From Confluentibacter lentus (lineage in GTDB: Bacteria > Bacteroidota > Bacteroidia > Flavobacteriales > Flavobacteriaceae): a stretch of 64,000 nt of DNA. Positions 5,292-52,349 of the stretch are shown here, piece after piece. The notes under the pieces are model-generated. The model did no database searches. It saw only the letters and a program-made list of their open reading frames with translations, and was not told where the DNA came from. A program made the position numbers and the translations under genes. Each line of letters opens with the position of its first letter. Positions within the stretch are counted from its first letter, which is position 1. Location: assembly GCF_002806995.1 (NCBI RefSeq), contig NZ_NIHE01000001.1:558001-622000 (forward strand). Reading direction: 5' to 3'.

Positions 5292-6846
5292 CTTTTATAT
5301 TATCCAATTTATAAAAACCGCCTTTATTTTCTTTTCTGGCAATGGATTGATTGATAATTAAATGTGCCACATTAATCATGTTCCTTAATTCACATAGCGA
5401 CGTGGATACTTTAGCTTGCTTGTAAAATTCTTCAACCTCATCGGCTATTAAATCTAAATGTTTAATCGCTTTTGTTAATCGGCTATCGCTTCTTACAATA
5501 CCAACATAATCACGCATTAAAGCTTGTAGTTGCTTCAAATTATACTGAATGATAACATGTTCTCTTGGTACACTGGTGCCTTCATCATTCCATTCTGGAA
5601 TATTTAATTCTAAAGTATCATATGTATGTTCAGAATGATATTTAAAAATATTGTGGGCATAAACCAAAGCTTCCAACAAGGAATTTGAAGCTAATCTATT
5701 CGCTCCATGCAATCCTGTTCTAGTGCATTCTCCGCAAGCGAATAAATTATTAATGGTTGTTTTCCCATCCATATCTACATCTATACCGCCACATAGATAA
5801 TGGGACGCGGGAACCACTGGAATCCAATCGGTTTCAACATCAATATGGTTTTGTTTGCATTTTTTATAAATATTCGGGAAATGCTTTTTAAATGCTTCAA
5901 TATCTATATGGGTACAATCTAAGAACACATTGGTATCTCCAGTTTTCTTTAATTCACTGTCTATACTTTGTGACACAATATCCCTGGAAGCTAATTCAGC
6001 TCGCTCATCATAATCAAGCATAAACCTGTAGCCGCTTTTGTTTCTTAAATAAGCCCCCATACCTCTTACGGCTTCAGAAATTAAAAAAGACGATTGGTCG
6101 CCTCTAGCATCGTAAAGTGCCGTTGGATGGAATTGTATAAATTCCATATCGGAAATCTTTGCCTTTGCTCTATAAGCCATGGCTATACCATCGCCCGTAG
6201 CAATTACAGGATTGGTAGTGTGCCCATATACTTTGCCGATACCGCCTGATGCCAATAAGGTACTATCTGCTTTAATGGTGAATATGGTCCCTTTTTTTTG
6301 GTCGAAAACATAAGCACCATAACAGGTATTATCCTTAGCTTGAGGATCTGTAATATGATGTTTGGTTATTAAATCGATGGCAAAATGATGGGACCACAAG
6401 GTTACATTTTTTAGTTCGTGCACTTTTTTAAGCAAAGCGCGTTCAATTTCGTAACCAGTAATGTCTTTATGATGTACAATTCTATATTCTGAATGCCCAC
6501 CTTCTTTTCCCAAATTGAATTCGCCACTAGCATCGGTATCAAAATTAGCCCCCCAAAGCAATAGCTCTTCAAGGCGCTTAGGCCCTTCCTTTACAACCAT
6601 TTTCACAACAGCTTCATCGCAAAGTCCATCGCCAGCAACAAGTGTGTCTTTAACGTGCTTTGTAAAGGAGTCCTTACCATCTAGAACAATAGCGACACCG
6701 CCTTGGGCATACTTCGTATTAGATTCATCTTCATTGGATTTGGTAATGATGGTGACCTTCCTGTCTGGAAATTTTTCAGCAATTTTAACAGCGAATGTTA
6801 GCCCTGCAATACCAGAACCTATAACCAAATAGTTTGTTGAAATCAT
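5266..6846 (-). CDS. nadB: L-aspartate oxidase
   Basis: A 526-residue FAD enzyme oxidising L-aspartate to iminoaspartate, the first step of de novo NAD synthesis. The dinucleotide-binding motif GSGIAGLTFA lies at residues 8-17. NTKYAQGGVA, HHKDITGYEIE, ASGGIGKVYGHTTNP and FIQFHPTAL follow, then HGANRLASNSLLEA near 380, all typical of NadB and the succinate dehydrogenase flavoprotein fold. The C-terminal helical domain is complete. The start lies one base after the nadA stop, so nadA-nadB is an operon and the product can be passed to NadA. The last codons lie inside a terminator hairpin shared with ssb. Confidence 0.96.
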   Translation of the reverse strand: MISTNYLVIGSGIAGLTFAVKIAEKFPDRKVTIITKSNEDESNTKYAQGGVAIVLDGKDSFTKHVKDTLVAGDGLCDEAVVKMVVKEGPKRLEELLLWGANFDTDASGEFNLGKEGGHSEYRIVHHKDITGYEIERALLKKVHELKNVTLWSHHFAIDLITKHHITDPQAKDNTCYGAYVFDQKKGTIFTIKADSTLLASGGIGKVYGHTTNPVIATGDGIAMAYRAKAKISDMEFIQFHPTALYDARGDQSSFLISEAVRGMGAYLRNKSGYRFMLDYDERAELASRDIVSQSIDSELKKTGDTNVFLDCTHIDIEAFKKHFPNIYKKCKQNHIDVETDWIPVVPASHYLCGGIDVDMDGKTTINNLFACGECTRTGLHGANRLASNSLLEALVYAHNIFKYHSEHTYDTLELNIPEWNDEGTSVPREHVIIQYNLKQLQALMRDYVGIVRSDSRLTKAIKHLDLIADEVEEFYKQAKVSTSLCELRNMINVAHLIINQSIARKENKGGFYKLDNIKENETEAKN

Positions 6847-7959: not shown

Positions 7960-9765
7960 TCAATTTAAAACTGCCATATTCTCAATCTCTGAATTAATAG
8001 TATTTAAAATCTTTTCGCCCTTATCCAATTCTTTTAAAACAACCTCTTTAACATCTTGAAAAGCATTTTTGGATTCTTGAAATAAATGTTTGTAATATGA
8101 AATGCCTTCATTAAGGTTGTTAGTAAAGGTCAATAAGTGTTTTTCATCTTTTTTATTCATTGAAAATTTAAAACTTTCCAATTTATTTTTTAAATAATCT
8201 ATATAGATGTAAAGTTCTTTTATGAATACATTAGGCCGATCTGTTCTCGTTATCATATCATCCCTTCCATAAATATGGTCTGTGATATTTTTTAAACTCA
8301 TGATCTTCGAATAATACGCCATATTGGGTCCGGGACAAATAGATACGCCTTCGCCTTCAATTTTTGTATCCAAATTGTAAGCCAACAAGGCCGAAGTGCC
8401 CAATCCTACGCAAGTACATGATTTTTCAACTATTTCATGATATTTTATTTCATAGTCATTTGAAGGCAACCCCATAGCGCCTAACTCTTTTATTTTTAAA
8501 TGTTGATACTCTCTCGAGGCTGTACATATACCATTTTCCTTGAACTCTTTATTTAAAGCAACAAATTTTTTAGGGCAAGAACTTCCTGGCCTTCCTTTGT
8601 TAATCAACACATCCCTCTCGGTATCTTTTGTATTATTTCTTAAGTTGTTAAATGGCACTCCTAATGGGGAAATATTACTTAAATATAGGTCTTCTTCTTT
8701 GGCGTCAACTAATCTATTTAAGGTTTTCTCATCAACTGTTGTGGCTTCTGGAACCAATAAAAAAGGCGTTCCCCAACCTACAGAATCTAAATGGTATTCC
8801 TTAATTAAAAACTCATGCTCTTCGTGGGTACCAACACCTCCTTGGGCAGATATTTTTATTGATAAATTCTCAGGGAAAATACGATTCTGATTCAAAAATT
8901 CTTGTTGCACCAATTCCTGAAGCGTTGTTTTAAGTTCTTCTCTCTTTTCCCTAAACTCCGCCAAAACAGGCCCTAAAAGATAGCCATCAGTTGCAAAAGC
9001 ATGACCCCCACAATTGAGTCCGGATTCAATTCTAAATTCTGAGATCCATAATCCTTTTTTTGCCAAAAATTTACCTTGGATTAATGCCGACCTGTAATCG
9101 CTTACTTTTAAGATAATTTTCTTTTTAAATACCCCATTTTCATTAGGATAGAAATCTTCAAACTGAGACATATAACTATAAAGTCGAGGATTTAAACCAG
9201 CAGACAACACAACCGATGAATTTAATTTACTGTTTGCAAAACCTCTTAACGCCGCATGGGCATCATTATATTCTACAGGTAATTTTTCATTTTTCAAATA
9301 GTTGTCTTTATCAACTTTAGTCATGATATTAACATCAATGCTTCCTAACTTCAAATTTTTATTAACCCAATTTTTTATTTCAGTAAAATTGTGTCCGTTT
9401 GAGGTTATTCTTTTAAAATCGGCTTTAATGGATGAGTTTTCAGGAAGCATATTTACGTAAGTATAAATAGCGTCCATTTTTTCGGCACTAACTTGTTTTA
9501 AAGCTTCGAATTTCTTTTCTATTAAATCATGTATTAAATCTAAATAAGATGTAATTCTTTTTGCTCTGTAATCATCCATCTTATTCGTAATTTCTTGGTA
9601 AGGAACTGCAAAGGTGTCGCTATACATTTTTCTTAGTTTCTCAAGCAATATATCATCCACCAAAGAAATTACAGAATCTATGCCATACTGAGCCACTTTT
9701 AAAGGTGAATCTATAGTAAATCCAATGCCCATTACTGGAATGTGGAATGCGTGTAATTTATTCAT
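7960..9765 (-). CDS. Uncharacterised 601-residue protein with nitronate-monooxygenase-like segments
   Basis: I do not recognise a characterised family. Seen: the start FHIPVMGIGFTIDSPLKVAQYGI looks like the first strand of a TIM-barrel flavoenzyme. SGLNCGGHAFATDG near residue 250 resembles the GGH region of nitronate monooxygenases. ISAQGGVGTHEEHEF followed by SVGWGTPFLLVPEA resembles their phosphate-binding glycine loop and the GT-x-F-L-x-x-E strand. The C-terminal part adds Cys397, Cys414, Cys450, Cys452 and Cys477 (SSCPKK, GICTAS, SCTCVG, SICPGPN), suggesting a metal or iron-sulfur site, then a helical tail. Inferred: a two-part FMN-type oxidoreductase. It is a single-gene unit with a Crp/Fnr-like palindrome upstream. 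Confidence 0.6.
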   Translation of the reverse strand: MNKLHAFHIPVMGIGFTIDSPLKVAQYGIDSVISLVDDILLEKLRKMYSDTFAVPYQEITNKMDDYRAKRITSYLDLIHDLIEKKFEALKQVSAEKMDAIYTYVNMLPENSSIKADFKRITSNGHNFTEIKNWVNKNLKLGSIDVNIMTKVDKDNYLKNEKLPVEYNDAHAALRGFANSKLNSSVVLSAGLNPRLYSYMSQFEDFYPNENGVFKKKIILKVSDYRSALIQGKFLAKKGLWISEFRIESGLNCGGHAFATDGYLLGPVLAEFREKREELKTTLQELVQQEFLNQNRIFPENLSIKISAQGGVGTHEEHEFLIKEYHLDSVGWGTPFLLVPEATTVDEKTLNRLVDAKEEDLYLSNISPLGVPFNNLRNNTKDTERDVLINKGRPGSSCPKKFVALNKEFKENGICTASREYQHLKIKELGAMGLPSNDYEIKYHEIVEKSCTCVGLGTSALLAYNLDTKIEGEGVSICPGPNMAYYSKIMSLKNITDHIYGRDDMITRTDRPNVFIKELYIYIDYLKNKLESFKFSMNKKDEKHLLTFTNNLNEGISYYKHLFQESKNAFQDVKEVVLKELDKGEKILNTINSEIENMAVLN

Positions 9766-46660: not shown

Positions 46661-46713
46661 TTAAGTATTTCAAAATTATAAAAGCTATAGCTTAATAGTA
46701 TTTTTATAATTTA

Positions 46714-47577
46714 TTAAGAAAATATAATATTTGAAAGCGTATATAAAGATGTCAATATAATTAAAACTCCCACAATAATCATCATGGTTTTAGTCGGCAA
46801 TCGTTTAGCAATATAAGCTCCGAAAGGTGCCGCCAATGTGCCACCAACAATAAGACCTAGAATAATTTGCCAACTTTGTATCCCCGTAAAATAGATGAGG
46901 ATTCCAGCACTGAAATAAGTTACAAAAAATTCTGCCGTATTTACTGTTCCAACAACGATATTTGGCGTATTTCCTTGTTTTATAAGATTGGAAGTTACAA
47001 TAGGCCCCCAACCGCCGCCGCCAATAGCATCTAAAAAACCCCCAAATGCAGCATAAACTGAGGCGTTTTTCAAATTAGTTTCAGTTTTTATGGCTTTCTT
47101 GAAAGCTTTTAAAAGAATAATAATACCTAAAATCATTAAATATACATTCACATAAGGCTTTATAATATTGCCATCTATAACCGAACCCAATAAATAGGCT
47201 CCGAGAGAAGCACTCAATACACCGGGAACTACAATCTTTAAAAACAATGCCTTATTGAAATTACCAAACCTGATATGGGACAATCCAGACACTCCAGTAG
47301 TAAACACTTCTGCAGTATGTACAGCGGCAGAAGCTAGTTTCGGTGATAATCCGAACCCTAATAAAACAGAATTTGAAGTGACGCCATAAGCCATTCCTAA
47401 AGCACCATCCACTGTCTGTGCCAAAAACCCAGCCAACAAAAACCAAAAAAATGTTTCATTGAATGTCAAATCTTCTGGCGATGCATTTGGCAAATACTTA
47501 ATAAGCACAATAGCTATTAATAGAAGTTTTAAAGCAACAATAACAAGCGTAATGTGTCTTAATTTAATTTTTTCCAT
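46714..47577 (-). CDS. TauE/SafE family exporter, copy 2
   Basis: A 287-residue membrane protein of the TSUP family with about eight helices. The signature half FLAQTVDGALGMAYGVTSNSVLLGFGLSPKLASAAVHTAEV and the second half ASVYAAFGGFLDAIGGGGWGPIVTSNLI are present. The family handles sulfite, sulfonates or related organosulfur anions. It has its own promoter (TACTTTTG at 47628) flanked by two operator-like palindromes that match those upstream of the TonB receptor, so it probably belongs to the same regulon. No other gene is fused. Confidence 0.87.
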   Translation of the reverse strand: MEKIKLRHITLVIVALKLLLIAIVLIKYLPNASPEDLTFNETFFWFLLAGFLAQTVDGALGMAYGVTSNSVLLGFGLSPKLASAAVHTAEVFTTGVSGLSHIRFGNFNKALFLKIVVPGVLSASLGAYLLGSVIDGNIIKPYVNVYLMILGIIILLKAFKKAIKTETNLKNASVYAAFGGFLDAIGGGGWGPIVTSNLIKQGNTPNIVVGTVNTAEFFVTYFSAGILIYFTGIQSWQIILGLIVGGTLAAPFGAYIAKRLPTKTMMIIVGVLIILTSLYTLSNIIFS

Positions 47578-47604
47578 GGAGTGCTTATTTAATTTATCCT
47601 AATC

Positions 47605-47619
47605 ATACCTTTTTAGTAT
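47605..47619. promoter_or_regulatory. Rrf2-type operator, downstream site of TauE promoter
   Basis: ATACCTTTTTAGTAT is identical to the site at 51857. It starts 8 bases downstream of the -7 element at 47628-47635, so repressor binding would block initiation. Confidence 0.5.
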
Positions 47620-47627
47620 AATTTAAG

Positions 47628-47635
47628 CAAAAGTA
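47628..47635 (-). promoter_or_regulatory. -7 element of TauE/SafE copy 2
   Basis: TACTTTTG on the minus strand, a perfect TAnnTTTG, 50 bases upstream of the ATG. Confidence 0.55.
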
Positions 47636-47650
47636 CACTTTTTTTAATTC

Positions 47651-47665
47651 CTACGAAATAAGTAG
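47651..47665. promoter_or_regulatory. Rrf2-type operator, upstream site of TauE promoter
   Basis: On the minus strand CTACTTATTTCGTAG, close to CTACCTATTTGGTAG at 51905. The distance to the -7 element is 15 bases, the same as at the TonB receptor promoter. Confidence 0.5.
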
Positions 47666-47788
47666 AGATTATTTTTTACTTAGAGTTTTATAATGCTTTC
47701 TTTAAACTGATATTATTCAGAAACTACATACTAACCGCTGAATCTCGGATAAGCTAATTATTCGTTAGACCTCTCTTCATTTCATCCT

Positions 47789-49105
47789 TTAAAGTAGGGT
47801 TACAAAGTAGGAAACAAGTCCAAAAACGGCGCTAATACAAATCCAAGTTATCATTCCAATTTTAAAGCGATACATCGCAATAAAGGAGATTATTGTCCAA
47901 CCTAATGTCATGCAGTCAAGTCCGTTAAGTGAAAGTTCTTTGGGAAATATGACGGCTTTACCTAAATAAATAGTGAGGTTGAGAACAACTCCCACAACTG
48001 CTGCCGTTACAAGCGAAAGTATTTCTTTTAATTTCTTATTTTCCTGAGTCCTTTCAATAAGGGGAGCTCCTGCAAATATGAACAGAAAGCATGGAAGAAA
48101 CGTGTAAAATGTTGTTGTAACCAGCCCGAGTGTTCCCATTGCAATAGAACTTCCAAAGTGGTTATGTCCTGCCATAAAGCCAACAAACACTAATACCATA
48201 ATTAAAGGACCGGGCGTTGTTTCGCCAAGTGCCAATCCGTCTATCATTTGAAGGTTTGTCAACCAATTGAATTCTTCAACGCTTACTTGTGCTACATAAG
48301 GTAAGACGGCATATGCGCCTCCAAAGGTTACAAAAGCCGCTTGCGTAAAAAACAATGATAATTTTTGCCAAAACTCAAAGTCAGACGTGAAAAAATAAAA
48401 AGCTATGATGGGTAATATCCAAAGCAAAGCACCTGTTAATACTTGTTTCCAAAATCGAAGTGGATTAAAACCAATGTTTTCAACAACCGTGTTTTTGTTA
48501 ATGTAATATTCACTTTCATCCATATCCTTTTTAACTGAAAAACTTTTGCTCGCCTTAAAGAATTTTGGGAATATGTGTCGACTTAATGCTGCCAAAATAA
48601 TAGCCCCCAATATGATTAAAGGAAATGACACATTAAAAAAGAAGATGCAAACAAAAGCTGCAAAAGCAACAAAATAGTGAAAAGGACTTAACAATGATTT
48701 TTTTCCAATCTTGATAAGCGCTAGGATTACAATGGCAATTACTGCCGGTTTAAGTCCGTTGAACATGGCATAAATCCATGGTACATTTCCATAAGAAACA
48801 TAAATAACACTCAATCCAAGAAGAATAAACATAGAAGGAAGTACAAATAAAATTCCTGCTGCCAATCCGCCGCGAATGCCGTGAAGCAACCAACCAATAT
48901 ATGCTGCTAACTGTTGCGCTTCAGGACCAGGCAAAATCATGCAATAATTTAAAGCATGTAGAAATTTACTATCGCTAATCCATTTCTTTTTGTCAACGAG
49001 GTATTCATGCATAATAGCAATTTGTCCCGCTGGACCCCCAAAACTTATAAAACCGAGTTTTGTCCAAAACCTTACCGCCTCTTTGAATGTTGGTTTATCA
49101 TTCAT
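47789..49105 (-). CDS. chrA: Chromate/sulfate transporter (CHR family, ChrA-like)
   Basis: A 438-residue membrane protein of two similar halves. The N-terminal half shows FWTKLGFISFGGPAGQIAIMHEYLVDKKKWISDSKFLHALNYCMILPGPEAQQLAAYIGW, the CHR signature. The second half repeats FTQAAFVTFGGAYAVLPYVAQVSVEEFNWLTNLQMIDGLALGETTPGPLIMVLVFVGFMAG. ChrA exports chromate, and sulfate can compete. In this setting between a TonB receptor and a TauE/SafE exporter, a sulfur-oxyanion role is plausible but not shown. A hairpin separates it from the receptor upstream. Confidence 0.88.
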   Translation of the reverse strand: MNDKPTFKEAVRFWTKLGFISFGGPAGQIAIMHEYLVDKKKWISDSKFLHALNYCMILPGPEAQQLAAYIGWLLHGIRGGLAAGILFVLPSMFILLGLSVIYVSYGNVPWIYAMFNGLKPAVIAIVILALIKIGKKSLLSPFHYFVAFAAFVCIFFFNVSFPLIILGAIILAALSRHIFPKFFKASKSFSVKKDMDESEYYINKNTVVENIGFNPLRFWKQVLTGALLWILPIIAFYFFTSDFEFWQKLSLFFTQAAFVTFGGAYAVLPYVAQVSVEEFNWLTNLQMIDGLALGETTPGPLIMVLVFVGFMAGHNHFGSSIAMGTLGLVTTTFYTFLPCFLFIFAGAPLIERTQENKKLKEILSLVTAAVVGVVLNLTIYLGKAVIFPKELSLNGLDCMTLGWTIISFIAMYRFKIGMITWICISAVFGLVSYFVTLL

Positions 49106-49132
49106 AAACTTATAAATATGTTAAATAGTCAA

Positions 49133-49169
49133 AACTTAGGATAGAAGAAGTTATCTTCTATCCTAAGTT
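49133..49169 (-). terminator. Strong hairpin between the TonB receptor and chrA
   Basis: AACTTAGGATAGAAGA and TCTTCTATCCTAAGTT are perfect 16-bp complements with a 5-base loop. Only TTTT follows on the minus strand, so it may terminate partially and lower chrA expression. Confidence 0.65.
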
Positions 49170-49188
49170 ATTAAATTTTAATGACTAA

Positions 49189-51738
49189 TTAAAAAGAATA
49201 TCTAAGTGTTACGCCATAAGTACCTGGGTCACCCAACACTGCTGCATAATGTCCTGCACTACCTCCCGCTGGTAATAATTGCTCATAATAATCCTTATCC
49301 AATAAATTACGTGCCCAAACAAATAGTGAAAGACCATCTGTTGCACGGAATCCAGCTCTTGCGTTTACAATGCCATAACCTTGAATATTTAAGAATTGTG
49401 ATGGTGATGCACTTGATGAGAATTCTGAACGGAAAAACGAATCAAATCCTAAGAAAAATTTACCTTGTTGACTTAAAAAATCTATGCTATTAGAGGTTAA
49501 TTCGCCTCCAAAAGAACCTGCCCACTTAGAAATACCCGGTAATCTACCACCAGAAATATCTTTGTATGCTTGTGCCCCTCCAACTTCTTCTAATGGTACT
49601 GGGGCATTAGTGAACTTTTCATATTTAGCATCGGTATAGGTTACCGCTAAGTTAAAACTCAAATTACTGTTAACCTTTACATTGGCATCAAGCTCAACTC
49701 CTTTTGAATTTACTTTTTCTGCATTGGAGATATAACCTCTGTTAACCCCTAACTGAGCTGCCTGTACGTTAGCTTGATAATCTTCAATATTGGTGTTAAA
49801 GAAAGTAGCATTTAAATTAATATTCTTTGCTGGTGATGTTTTTAAACCGACTTCTACATGTTTAACATACTCTGGTTTGATGGTTCCCAAATCTACCGCC
49901 ACGGCACCATCAATAACGGGTAACCCAGCAACGTTTACCCCCACTGGTTTGTAACTTGTGGAGTAGGTAGCATAGGCATTAATTTTATCGGTAACCTTAT
50001 AGGAAGCTGTTAATTGATAGGTAAAGTTCGTTTCATCTGCTCCTGTTTCAAAAAATTGATTGGTATAGACGACGCGTTTTAAAGCCAATAAAGCGGGATC
50101 GGTAGTCTCTAAACCTCCATAGGTGACTCTGTTATAATAGACCTGTTTTTCATCATAATTAAATCTGACCCCTGGTAATATGTGTAACTTATCTGTTACC
50201 GCCCAATCTATATTTGCGAAAACGGCAGCACTTGAAGATTTAATGGAGGCATCGGTTCTAATCCCATAACCTTCAAGCAAGCCCGGTGTTTCCCAAAGCT
50301 CGCTTGTTGAATTTTGTGAAAAACGCCACTGTGCGGTACCTGATTCTTCCGTCCCATCAATTTTCACTTCTTGGTCTATAAAAAACAACCCGACAACACC
50401 ACTTAATTTAGATGATATGTCACCTGCATATCTAATCTCTTGGGACCAATTTTCATGTTTAGCAGGATTTTGGGATTTTGCCAAAGCTTGCAATCCTGTA
50501 AAATCCCTATCGTTTGATGGCCCCCAATTCCAATACCTCCAAGCAGTTGTAGAAGTAAGGGTTCCTTTTCCTAATTCAAAATCGGCATTGAGCGACACAC
50601 CTCCCAATTCGTTAAGCGATCGCCAAGGGGTATCATGATCTATAACCCTATCAAAAGCATTGGTGCTTGGTAAGGTATAGTTCAAATCAGCAATGATATT
50701 ATTAAACTGACGATACGCAGCACGTTGGGTTTGAACCACACCCGCTACAACCTGTGCAAACCCATTCGGATTTTGTCTAGTATTATCACCAATAAAAGTG
50801 ATTTTTATTTTATCACTAGGCGTAAAAAGTAATTGCCCTCTAAAACCTAAATTATTGATGTCGTTAACATATTCATCTTTTGCGATGTTATAAATATTCC
50901 CATCCCTTTGTGTTCCAGAAAATGATACTCTAGCAGCAAGCTTGTCCTTAATGATACCTCCAGTGACAGAAGCTTTGGCTTGGATAAAGCCATAATTACC
51001 ATAACTTACCTCAAAATTTGCTCCAGGTGTAAAACTTGCTTTTCTTGTTGTGATGTTAAAAGCTCCAGCCGTGGTATTCTTTCCAAAAAGTGTTCCTTGA
51101 GGACCACGCAATACTTCAATACAATCAATATCAATAAAATCGAGTGTCGCTACAGCTGGACGTGCAAAATAAACACCATCTACATAAAAACCTACACCAG
51201 AATCAAGACCATCGTTGGTAAGGCCGAATGGTGATCCCAAACCTCTAATATTAATCCCTGTATTTCTTGGATTGGATGTGTAAAGTTGCACTGATGGAAC
51301 CAGTTCCTTCACCAAGTTTACGTTAAATGCACCCGCATCTTCTATCTTAGCGCCTCCAACAATCGATATGGGAATAGGTATGTTTTGGGCTGTTTCAGTT
51401 CGTCTTCTGGCTGTAACAGTAACTTCATTTAAATCAGCACTTTTTGGCTTTAAGGAAATTTCTATATTAATCCACTCTGTTAATTCTACAGCTTTGCTTT
51501 CAAAACCTAAATATGACACATCAAGAAATAATGGCAATGCGCCTCTGGTATCTATTTTAAAGCTTCCGTCAATGCCCGTAATTACGCCATTGGTAGTTTC
51601 TCTTATCAAAATATTTGCTCCAGACAGAGGTTCGTTCGTTGATTCATCATAAACATACCCTGAAATAGTGTGTTGAGGAAAAGCAAATTGTATTGTAAAA
51701 ATAAATGTAACCTGAATAATAATTTTTTTTGTTTTCAT
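49189..51738 (-). CDS. TonB-dependent receptor with carboxypeptidase-regulatory-like N-terminus
   Basis: An 849-residue outer-membrane transporter. A signal peptide is followed by a CarboxypepD-like sandwich (TISGYVYDESTNEPLSGANILIRETTNGVITGIDGSF), a plug with VEVLRGPQG-type motif (CIEVLRGPQGTLFGKNTTAGAFNITTRKA) and a 22-strand barrel ending ...GVTLRYSF. The start of the plug, VTARRRTETAQNIPIPISIV, resembles receptors of the sort used for small hydrophobic or organosulfur ligands, but the ligand is not known. Two palindromes frame its promoter, matching those before TauE/SafE copy 2, and the Rrf2 gene lies next upstream. Confidence 0.9.
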   Translation of the reverse strand: MKTKKIIIQVTFIFTIQFAFPQHTISGYVYDESTNEPLSGANILIRETTNGVITGIDGSFKIDTRGALPLFLDVSYLGFESKAVELTEWINIEISLKPKSADLNEVTVTARRRTETAQNIPIPISIVGGAKIEDAGAFNVNLVKELVPSVQLYTSNPRNTGINIRGLGSPFGLTNDGLDSGVGFYVDGVYFARPAVATLDFIDIDCIEVLRGPQGTLFGKNTTAGAFNITTRKASFTPGANFEVSYGNYGFIQAKASVTGGIIKDKLAARVSFSGTQRDGNIYNIAKDEYVNDINNLGFRGQLLFTPSDKIKITFIGDNTRQNPNGFAQVVAGVVQTQRAAYRQFNNIIADLNYTLPSTNAFDRVIDHDTPWRSLNELGGVSLNADFELGKGTLTSTTAWRYWNWGPSNDRDFTGLQALAKSQNPAKHENWSQEIRYAGDISSKLSGVVGLFFIDQEVKIDGTEESGTAQWRFSQNSTSELWETPGLLEGYGIRTDASIKSSSAAVFANIDWAVTDKLHILPGVRFNYDEKQVYYNRVTYGGLETTDPALLALKRVVYTNQFFETGADETNFTYQLTASYKVTDKINAYATYSTSYKPVGVNVAGLPVIDGAVAVDLGTIKPEYVKHVEVGLKTSPAKNINLNATFFNTNIEDYQANVQAAQLGVNRGYISNAEKVNSKGVELDANVKVNSNLSFNLAVTYTDAKYEKFTNAPVPLEEVGGAQAYKDISGGRLPGISKWAGSFGGELTSNSIDFLSQQGKFFLGFDSFFRSEFSSSASPSQFLNIQGYGIVNARAGFRATDGLSLFVWARNLLDKDYYEQLLPAGGSAGHYAAVLGDPGTYGVTLRYSF

Positions 51739-51855
51739 ATGTAAATATTTATTGTTTTTTAATTGTCATATGTTATCACCTTATTCTGATTGGTGCTTGT
51801 TTATACAAACTTGAAGTTAAAGGTGATTTCATGATAATTTTTAATTTATACTTAT

Positions 51856-51872
51856 CATACCTTTTTAGTATG
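51856..51872. promoter_or_regulatory. Rrf2-type operator, downstream site of TonB receptor promoter
   Basis: CATACCTTTTTAGTATG, a 5-bp inverted repeat with 7-base spacer, lies 9 bases downstream of the -7 element at 51882. Its 15-base core is identical to the one at 47605. Confidence 0.55.
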
Positions 51873-51881
51873 AATTATAGG

Positions 51882-51889
51882 CAAATATA
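51882..51889 (-). promoter_or_regulatory. -7 element of the TonB receptor
   Basis: TATATTTG on the minus strand, perfect TAnnTTTG, between two operator-like palindromes. Confidence 0.6.
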
Positions 51890-51898
51890 TAAATTAAA

Positions 51899-51925
51899 TT
51901 ATCCCTACCTATTTGGTAGGGATAA
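51899..51925. promoter_or_regulatory. Rrf2-type operator, upstream site (perfect 11-bp inverted repeat)
   Basis: TTATCCCTACC-TATTT-GGTAGGGATAA is a perfect inverted repeat with a 5-base spacer. Its core CTACCTATTTGGTAG (51905-51919) is 15 bases from the -7 element and matches the site at 47651. It lies just after the Rrf2 stop and so could also terminate that gene. Confidence 0.6.
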
Positions 51926-51935
51926 TTTTAAAATT

Positions 51936-52349
51936 TTATTTTTTAGATAAATCTACAATGGTTTCTTCAAGAACGGGAAGCATTTTATCTCGAAGGTCTC
52001 TGAATAAAAGTCTTAGTTTGCAGGTTTCTTCATCAATGCATTCATCACATTTTTGATAAAAATTTTCTGAAACACATGGAATAAGGGCGATGGGCCCATC
52101 AATGATTCGCATGACATCTGCAACAGTTATGGTATTAGCTGGTTTTAAAAAACGATAGCCTCCAACAGCGCCACGTTCACTTTTTATGAGTCGGTGCTGA
52201 CGTAATTCCCTGAGTATTTTCTCTAAAAACTTAAACGGTATGTTTTCATGCTCTGATATGGACTTCGCCGAAACAGGTTTGTTATCGACTTCATTTTCAT
52301 AAAGATATATCAAGGTTTTTATCGCATACTTTGTCCGTTTAGTGAGCAT
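51936..52349 (-). CDS. Rrf2 family transcriptional regulator
   Basis: A 137-residue winged-helix regulator (MLTKRTKYAIKTLIYLYEN, then KFLEKILRELRQHRLIKSERGAVGGY). Its C-terminal part carries four cysteines at 92, 101, 104 and 110 (C-x8-C-x2-C-x5-C), different from the three-Cys IscR layout but able to hold an iron-sulfur cluster or sense thiols. It begins three bases after the pheS stop, so it is read with pheS as well as possibly alone. It is the natural candidate to bind the palindromes at 51856, 51899, 47605 and 47651. Confidence 0.88.
   Translation of the reverse strand: MLTKRTKYAIKTLIYLYENEVDNKPVSAKSISEHENIPFKFLEKILRELRQHRLIKSERGAVGGYRFLKPANTITVADVMRIIDGPIALIPCVSENFYQKCDECIDEETCKLRLLFRDLRDKMLPVLEETIVDLSKK

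Follow-up and report, generated by a model that had tools for sequence, protein, structure and literature searches.

CymR of Bacillus subtilis and Staphylococcus aureus controls genes of sulfur acquisition, transporters included (PMC3828012), and is described as binding no cluster and as working together with CysK (PMC9338935, PMC3828012). For the related IscR of Escherichia coli, residue E43 is reported to contact the cytosine at -8 of the operator and Q44 the base at +4 (PMC9338935). Among transporters, proteins of the TauE family have been shown elsewhere to take up sulfate (PMC11535334). A search of the open PMC library returned no published account of a regulon like the one described below, or of the control of sulfur uptake in Bacteroidota. 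Here we describe a locus of Confluentibacter lentus, lying in a stretch of 64,000 nucleotides (the window), at which a local Rrf2-family protein probably acts like CymR as a sulfur repressor, controlling an uptake regulon of two promoters, those of a TonB-dependent receptor gene and of a TauE/SafE-family transporter gene.

Gene order and promoter layout

On the minus strand of the window the genes follow one another in the order pheS, rrf2, TonB receptor, ChrA, TauE, a regulator, a membrane-fusion protein and an RND pump. The features on which the argument turns are these:

51936..52349, minus strand: Rrf2-family regulator, 137 aa (Pfam PF02082, 119.7 bits; NCBIfam Rrf2 superfamily above cut-off)
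51904..51920, minus strand: candidate upstream operator of the receptor promoter, CCTACCAAATAGGTAGG, about -43 to -27, found at the same place in C. citreus (CCTACTTATTTGGCAGG)
51882..51889, minus strand: -7 box of the receptor promoter, TATATTTG, from the sequence and the TAnnTTTG consensus
51848..51872, minus strand: candidate downstream operator of the receptor promoter with its conserved extension, CATACTAAAAAGGTATGATAAGTAT, core about +6 to +22
49189..51738, minus strand: TonB-dependent receptor, 849 aa, predicted target (Pfam plug and barrel)
49134..49168, no strand assigned: strong hairpin that separates receptor and ChrA, probably a terminator (-26.2 kcal/mol, intergenic stretch)
47789..49105, minus strand: ChrA-type chromate transporter, judged to lie outside the regulon (TIGR00937 above cut-off)
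47650..47666, minus strand: candidate upstream operator of the TauE promoter, TCTACTTATTTCGTAGG, about -43 to -27
47628..47635, minus strand: -7 box of the TauE promoter, TACTTTTG, from the sequence
47596..47620, minus strand: candidate downstream operator of the TauE promoter with its conserved extension, TATACTAAAAAGGTATGATTAGGAT, core about +4 to +20
46714..47577, minus strand: TauE/SafE-family transporter, 287 aa, predicted target (Pfam PF01925, 118.2 bits)

Both -7 boxes fit the flavobacterial TAnnTTTG motif, and operator positions relative to the start assume that this box occupies -12 to -5, where PMC9723704 places it. The four palindromes named in a preliminary description of this DNA are indeed present: the downstream 15-mer is identical at 47605-47619 (TauE) and 51857-51871 (receptor), and the upstream 15-mers lie at 47651-47665 and 51905-51919, respectively. 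The identical spacing also claimed there holds for the upstream sites, which are equally far from the -7 box at both promoters, and fails for the downstream sites, which differ by 2 bp, the site centres being 48 bp apart at the receptor and 46 bp at TauE. Beyond the palindrome, the two downstream sites have the block ATACTAAAAAGGTATGATNAGNATAAATTAAA (coding, minus strand) in common, and the best ungapped alignment of the two promoter stretches scores 26, against a maximum of 14 in 300 dinucleotide-shuffled pairs. Scans with the 15-mers at 3 mismatches and no context gave 14 downstream matches against 8.0 expected and 3 upstream against 1.8, and relaxed 15-mer scans of window and genome gave counts near or below the control; what speaks for the sites is not the bare 15-mer count but an exact match over the extended block, their setting at promoters and their conservation. 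The regulator 3' of TauE is a weak match to MsvR. It and the RND pump were considered as further targets and rejected, the one 15-mer match between TauE and them (46687-46701, 3 mismatches) being at chance level.

The nearest named record is the congeneric Confluentibacter citreus XJNY (Flavobacteriaceae); its Rrf2 is 99% identical and its gene order is that of the window, ChrA excepted. All four sites occur at the same positions in C. citreus (CCTACTTATTTGGCAGG and CATACTAACAAGGTATG at the receptor, CCTACTTATTTTGTAGG and TATACTAAAAAGGTATG at TauE), and all eight sites of the two species carry C at -4 and G at +4. ChrA, which had been counted as a member of the regulon, has to be dropped: the 20-kb stretch of C. 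citreus contains no ChrA match, receptor and TauE being 109 bp apart there, the 15-mer scans found no site 5' of the gene, and in the window a terminator-like hairpin precedes it. An insertion, or loss of the gene from one species, appears to account for the difference. As only 3 nt separate the end of the pheS frame from the start of rrf2, the regulator gene has no room for an operator of its own, and to judge from this gap it is probably co-transcribed with pheS.

A repeated leader of ~95 bp lies directly 5' of the receptor start codon (window 51738-51830, minus strand). BLAST finds 11 copies in the genome, some of them partial (copies in L113-L122); at nine of the 11 an ORF of at least 100 aa begins at the end of the copy, and ATGAAA mostly bounds both sides. 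The leader is missing 5' of the C. citreus receptor, with eight matches elsewhere in that genome. It occurs in 5/5 genus genomes (4-25 matches), in 0/8 other genomes of the family and weakly in 1/7 of the order, and may be a small mobile element aimed at start codons.

Sites and predicted target genes in related genomes

The extended pattern ATACTNANNNGGTATGAWNAGKAT was searched at no more than one mismatch in 397 genomes of the family, of which five have a match; the reversed pattern, used as control, gave three matches in total. Exact matches are found in four genomes, namely our own (two), C. citreus (two) and two members of one other genus, G325 and G124 (one each), while a fifth genome (G279) has a single match with one mismatch. 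The same four genomes are those with an Rrf2 at least 66% identical to that of the window, the next best in the same draw being 58%. Because the pattern was written after the G325 and G124 sites were known, their lack of mismatches is partly by construction; the absence of a match in 392 genomes is unaffected. Within the C. lentus genome, the pattern at no more than one mismatch occurs at the receptor and TauE promoters and nowhere else, and these sites are conserved at the orthologous promoters of the same locus in one sister species. At 3 mismatches the genome has eight matches in total, equal to the control.

In G325 and G124 the single site lies between rrf2 and a 246-aa ORF followed by a PiT permease, just 5' of a -7 box, and ATACT-N5-GGTATGA was reached in none of 5000 shuffles of each short stretch. 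A leader RNA element as the cause of the conserved 3' extension was rejected, the extended sequence sitting upstream of the -7 box in these genomes. The 246-aa ORF is a DUF2490 protein in G325 and is matched by size in G124; no relatives of the receptor or of TauE were seen in the 20-kb stretches of either. Both permeases have CysP as best model (180 bits, below the cut-off of 400). The aspartates of the GANDVANA motif are given as marks of phosphate carriers in PMC5840216; by that criterion, both are replaced in the G325 permease (by V and N); the G124 permease has N in place of the second, and its first motif escaped recognition. An Rrf2 66% identical to that of the window is encoded on an uncultured Saprospirales contig (L032); no such site was found on this contig, and there was no sulfur gene among the six of its 12 other ORFs that were searched.

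The double-site layout was seen in two sister species, C. lentus and C. citreus. The expectation that the pair of palindromes would recur in related genomes is thus borne out at both promoters of C. citreus, and Rrf2-type sites accompany most receptor and TauE relatives, the double layout itself being confined to the sister species. In 14 of 17 upstream regions of such relatives the best site beats dinucleotide shuffles at p <=0.05 (the G342 receptor, G225 TauE and G034 TauE fail), p-values that are optimistic because the scoring template was drawn from some of the same regions. For the TauE genes of G153, G342 and G323, the top-scoring site is not the one nearest to the TauE promoter, and a nearer site is visible.

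Relatives of the receptor that are 52-93% identical occur in six other genomes of the 397, plus one at 30%, and an Rrf2 gene is adjacent or within a few kb in C. citreus, G121, G323, G153 and G342. TauE relatives were found in eight of 329 family genomes. If G198 is taken to be in both draws (397 and 329 genomes), six of the seven genomes with a receptor at least 50% identical, our own included, also have TauE. In G323 the receptor lies directly 3' of an O-acetylhomoserine sulfhydrylase gene, with TauE a few kb off beside Rrf2, and in G121 a gene of the YeiH family, a putative sulfate exporter by name (81 bits against a cut-off of 232.6), adjoins Rrf2. TauE comes first in G153, followed by two PAPS-reductase-domain genes and a sulfite reductase gene, with a cys-type Rrf2 nearby; G342 shows the same arrangement by ORF layout, and in G225 TauE is divergent from a PAPS-reductase/sulfite-reductase operon. 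Three of the six relatives outside the genus (G342 by ORF layout) are therefore in or beside cys operons, which supports the sulfur role first suggested for this locus. Two class-level genomes have a TauE match of 40-41% inside a longer ORF; in G496, the one tested, the match is fused to a siroheme-synthase domain. These contexts, together with the sulfate uptake published for the family, lead us to read TauE as an importer rather than an exporter, likely of sulfate or a similar anion.

Several further features were seen at these loci. Beside TauE and Rrf2 in G034 (L035, ~6353-6499) is a C-terminal receptor remnant, 48% identical to residues 788-849, which is probably a decayed copy of the same module. 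Short leader peptides ending in SSMMCMCW and a stop codon, conserved in two genomes (L060 and L061), lie between an Rrf2-type site and the receptor gene. In L082 and L083, near 9000-9100 and 9300-9450, the leaders MCSCCKTM and MMYSCSKTK (each followed by a stop) and a hairpin, identified by eye, precede a 694-aa ORF that is a sulfite reductase by size. Cysteine-dependent attenuation on top of the repressor is a possible reading of both sets of leaders. In G121 a tRNA-Cys gene (anticodon GCA; L058 10600-10671, minus strand) lies between an Rrf2-type site with a -7 box and the receptor, so that a sulfur-controlled promoter may also make tRNA-Cys.

The regulator, its paralog and the operator base at +/-4

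The window protein belongs to the Rrf2 family (PF02082, against a cut-off of 30 bits). Its best match in the PDB is 4cic, a BadM/Rrf2-family regulator, and the second and third are CymR of B. subtilis and S. aureus. The four cysteines noted in the preliminary description are present as Cys92-x8-Cys-x2-Cys-x5-Cys; they are not special to this protein, as 49 of the 51 Rrf2 proteins compared have the pattern. The related-locus search with this single protein as query gave four loci. Two proteins of Acidisoma (L033 and L034; Pseudomonadota), 48-49% identical, have the same four-cysteine pattern.

The genome encodes an Rrf2 paralog (C1:157662), 46% identical, whose neighbours are PAPS-reductase-type genes, a CysN-type GTPase, a sulfite reductase and Cys/Met PLP enzymes. 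In a tree of the 51 proteins, 33, this paralog included, group together (support 88/89); the window type lies outside this group, and the tree does not resolve it and the 66-67% identical proteins as a clade. The window protein is a diverged paralog of the cys-gene Rrf2. Clusters around relatives of the paralog, recognised by ORF layout except in L043, carry CCTAY-N7-RTAGG sites, read by eye as standing right after the -7 box in seven of 10 stretches. The paralog's own site, TCTATTAAATCGATAGG, has T:A at +/-4. Its pattern has one genomic match without mismatch and 20 more at 2 mismatches, against 21 in all for the control.

E43 and Q44 of IscR align with E43 and K44 in the recognition helix of the window protein, and site numbering from the centre was assumed to equal the IscR numbering of PMC9338935. 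For 49 Rrf2 loci (two outgroup rows excluded), the best site within 1500 bp having a -7 box at no more than 45 nt was taken; 37 loci gave such a promoter-linked site and 12 gave none. Where residue 44 is K or N, C:G stands on both sides at +/-4 in 5/5 cases, against 0/32 for other residues (Fisher p 2.3e-6, for rows that are related, not independent, and a site template built in part from the same sequences). Since G011, one of the five, belongs to the 33-protein group, the tree implies two or more origins of the link. Mutual information is as high for residue 5 as for residue 44 (0.57 each), and permutation z puts residue 5 first, 12 second and 44 tenth. At loci with other residues, C:G/C:G sites away from any -7 box occur in G006, where one has the top score, and at lower scores in G007 and others. 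Three N44 proteins have no promoter-linked site, among them that of G053, which has a C:G/C:G site without a -7 box. Residue 44 (K/N versus S) perhaps reads the operator base at +/-4.

Proposed mechanism and comparison with known systems

The layout is most simply read as that of a repressor covering the -33 region together with the start of the transcript. From the sites, their conservation, the co-occurrence of the genes and the gene contexts that we observed, we infer binding, repression, signal and substrates as follows. A dimer on the upstream site would cover the -33 region and another on the downstream site the first transcribed bases, and when sulfur is plentiful the two together would shut the promoter. 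In sulfur shortage Rrf2 would release the DNA, and the cell would make two uptake proteins: in the outer membrane a receptor for some sulfur source, in the inner membrane an importer whose likeliest substrate is sulfate. CymR serves as the model for the signal, since with CysK it is described as repressing when cysteine is present (PMC9338935, PMC3828012). Operator spelling, with C:G for the window protein and T:A for the cys paralog at +/-4, may keep the two regulators apart.

The sites could instead be bound by the cys paralog, not or not only by the local Rrf2, with the paralog as master of both promoters or with the upstream sites belonging to the paralog and the downstream sites to the local protein. 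The two types do share a site framework, the window's upstream sites being similar to the paralog-type CCTAY-N7-RTAGG, and in G198 the receptor and a sulfate-type site occur with no Rrf2 match in the 20-kb stretch. We nevertheless think such binding unlikely, given the T:A of the paralog's own site, a pattern unique in the genome at 0 mismatches, and the C at -4 and G at +4 in all eight window and C. citreus sites; the extended motif, moreover, follows the local Rrf2 type. This last observation, with the conservation in C. citreus, argues for a single Rrf2-type regulator on both promoters, as had been proposed. At least for the receptor, the upstream palindrome could be simply the terminator of pheS-rrf2: in the window it forms a fully paired 14-bp stem (-20.4 kcal/mol, z -6.2) that starts 7 nt 3' of the rrf2 stop, and the C. 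citreus TauE site closely follows the receptor stop. The same place in C. citreus, however, folds at -3.8 kcal/mol (z -0.2) with the half-sites kept except for one base, and the TauE counterpart, which in the window is at least 120 nt from the ChrA stop, folds weakly (-4.2, -6.5) and keeps its position. An operator explains a palindrome that loses its stem and keeps all but one base of its half-sites better than a terminator does, and a terminator without operator function is very improbable; in the window species the palindrome may be both.

The regulator might instead sense iron-sulfur, thiol oxidation or another stress, with a receptor that imports iron chelates; the link to sulfur would then be incidental. 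Clusters or iron are the signals of its relatives IscR, RirA and NsrR. For the receptor, the best-matching database model is that of a siderophore receptor, and its best solved relative is the pesticin receptor (over residues 104-286). Every receptor model is below cut-off, however, in four other genera the genes nearby are sulfur genes or members of sulfur-transporter families, and the cysteine spacing differs from the C-x6-C-x5-C of the genome's own third Rrf2. We give the iron or stress reading a low probability, although the cargo of the receptor may be an iron chelate.

The CymR-like sulfur repressor of receptor and TauE thus stays our preferred reading. A broader proposal, which we offer tentatively and with more doubt than belief, is that Bacteroidota have CymR-like Rrf2 sulfur repressors with a distinct four-cysteine sensor, in which a helix code at +/-4 (S reading T:A, K/N reading C:G, with residue 44 foremost) would limit cross-talk between paralogs, and that the window protein built a private double-operator sulfur-uptake regulon on this code. 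The locus gives sulfur uptake in Bacteroidota a candidate regulator, operators, target genes and a residue-base link, and it suggests that TauE-family proteins import sulfate and that a TonB receptor serves some sulfur source.

Among known systems, IscR, RirA and NsrR have the same DNA-binding domain, but the window protein is below the cut-off of all their named models (73 bits against 207.55 for IscR, TIGR02010). The ligand cysteines of IscR, NsrR and RirA number three, spaced C-x5-C-x5-C or near, whereas the window type has C-x8-C-x2-C-x4/5-C. The TauE protein is of the same family as the sulfate uptake transporters TK06_RS10770 and Ac3H11_578 (PMC11535334), which are from Pseudomonas and Acidovorax; the present protein is a putative importer, with sulfate as its predicted substrate. 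CymR of B. subtilis and S. aureus is alike in its Rrf2 domain; the window protein differs from it in scoring 76.3 bits on the NCBIfam CymR model NF047409 (cut-off 195), in having four clustered cysteines where CymR is described as being without a cluster (PMC9338935), and in a predicted regulon that comprises two promoters only and includes a TonB receptor.
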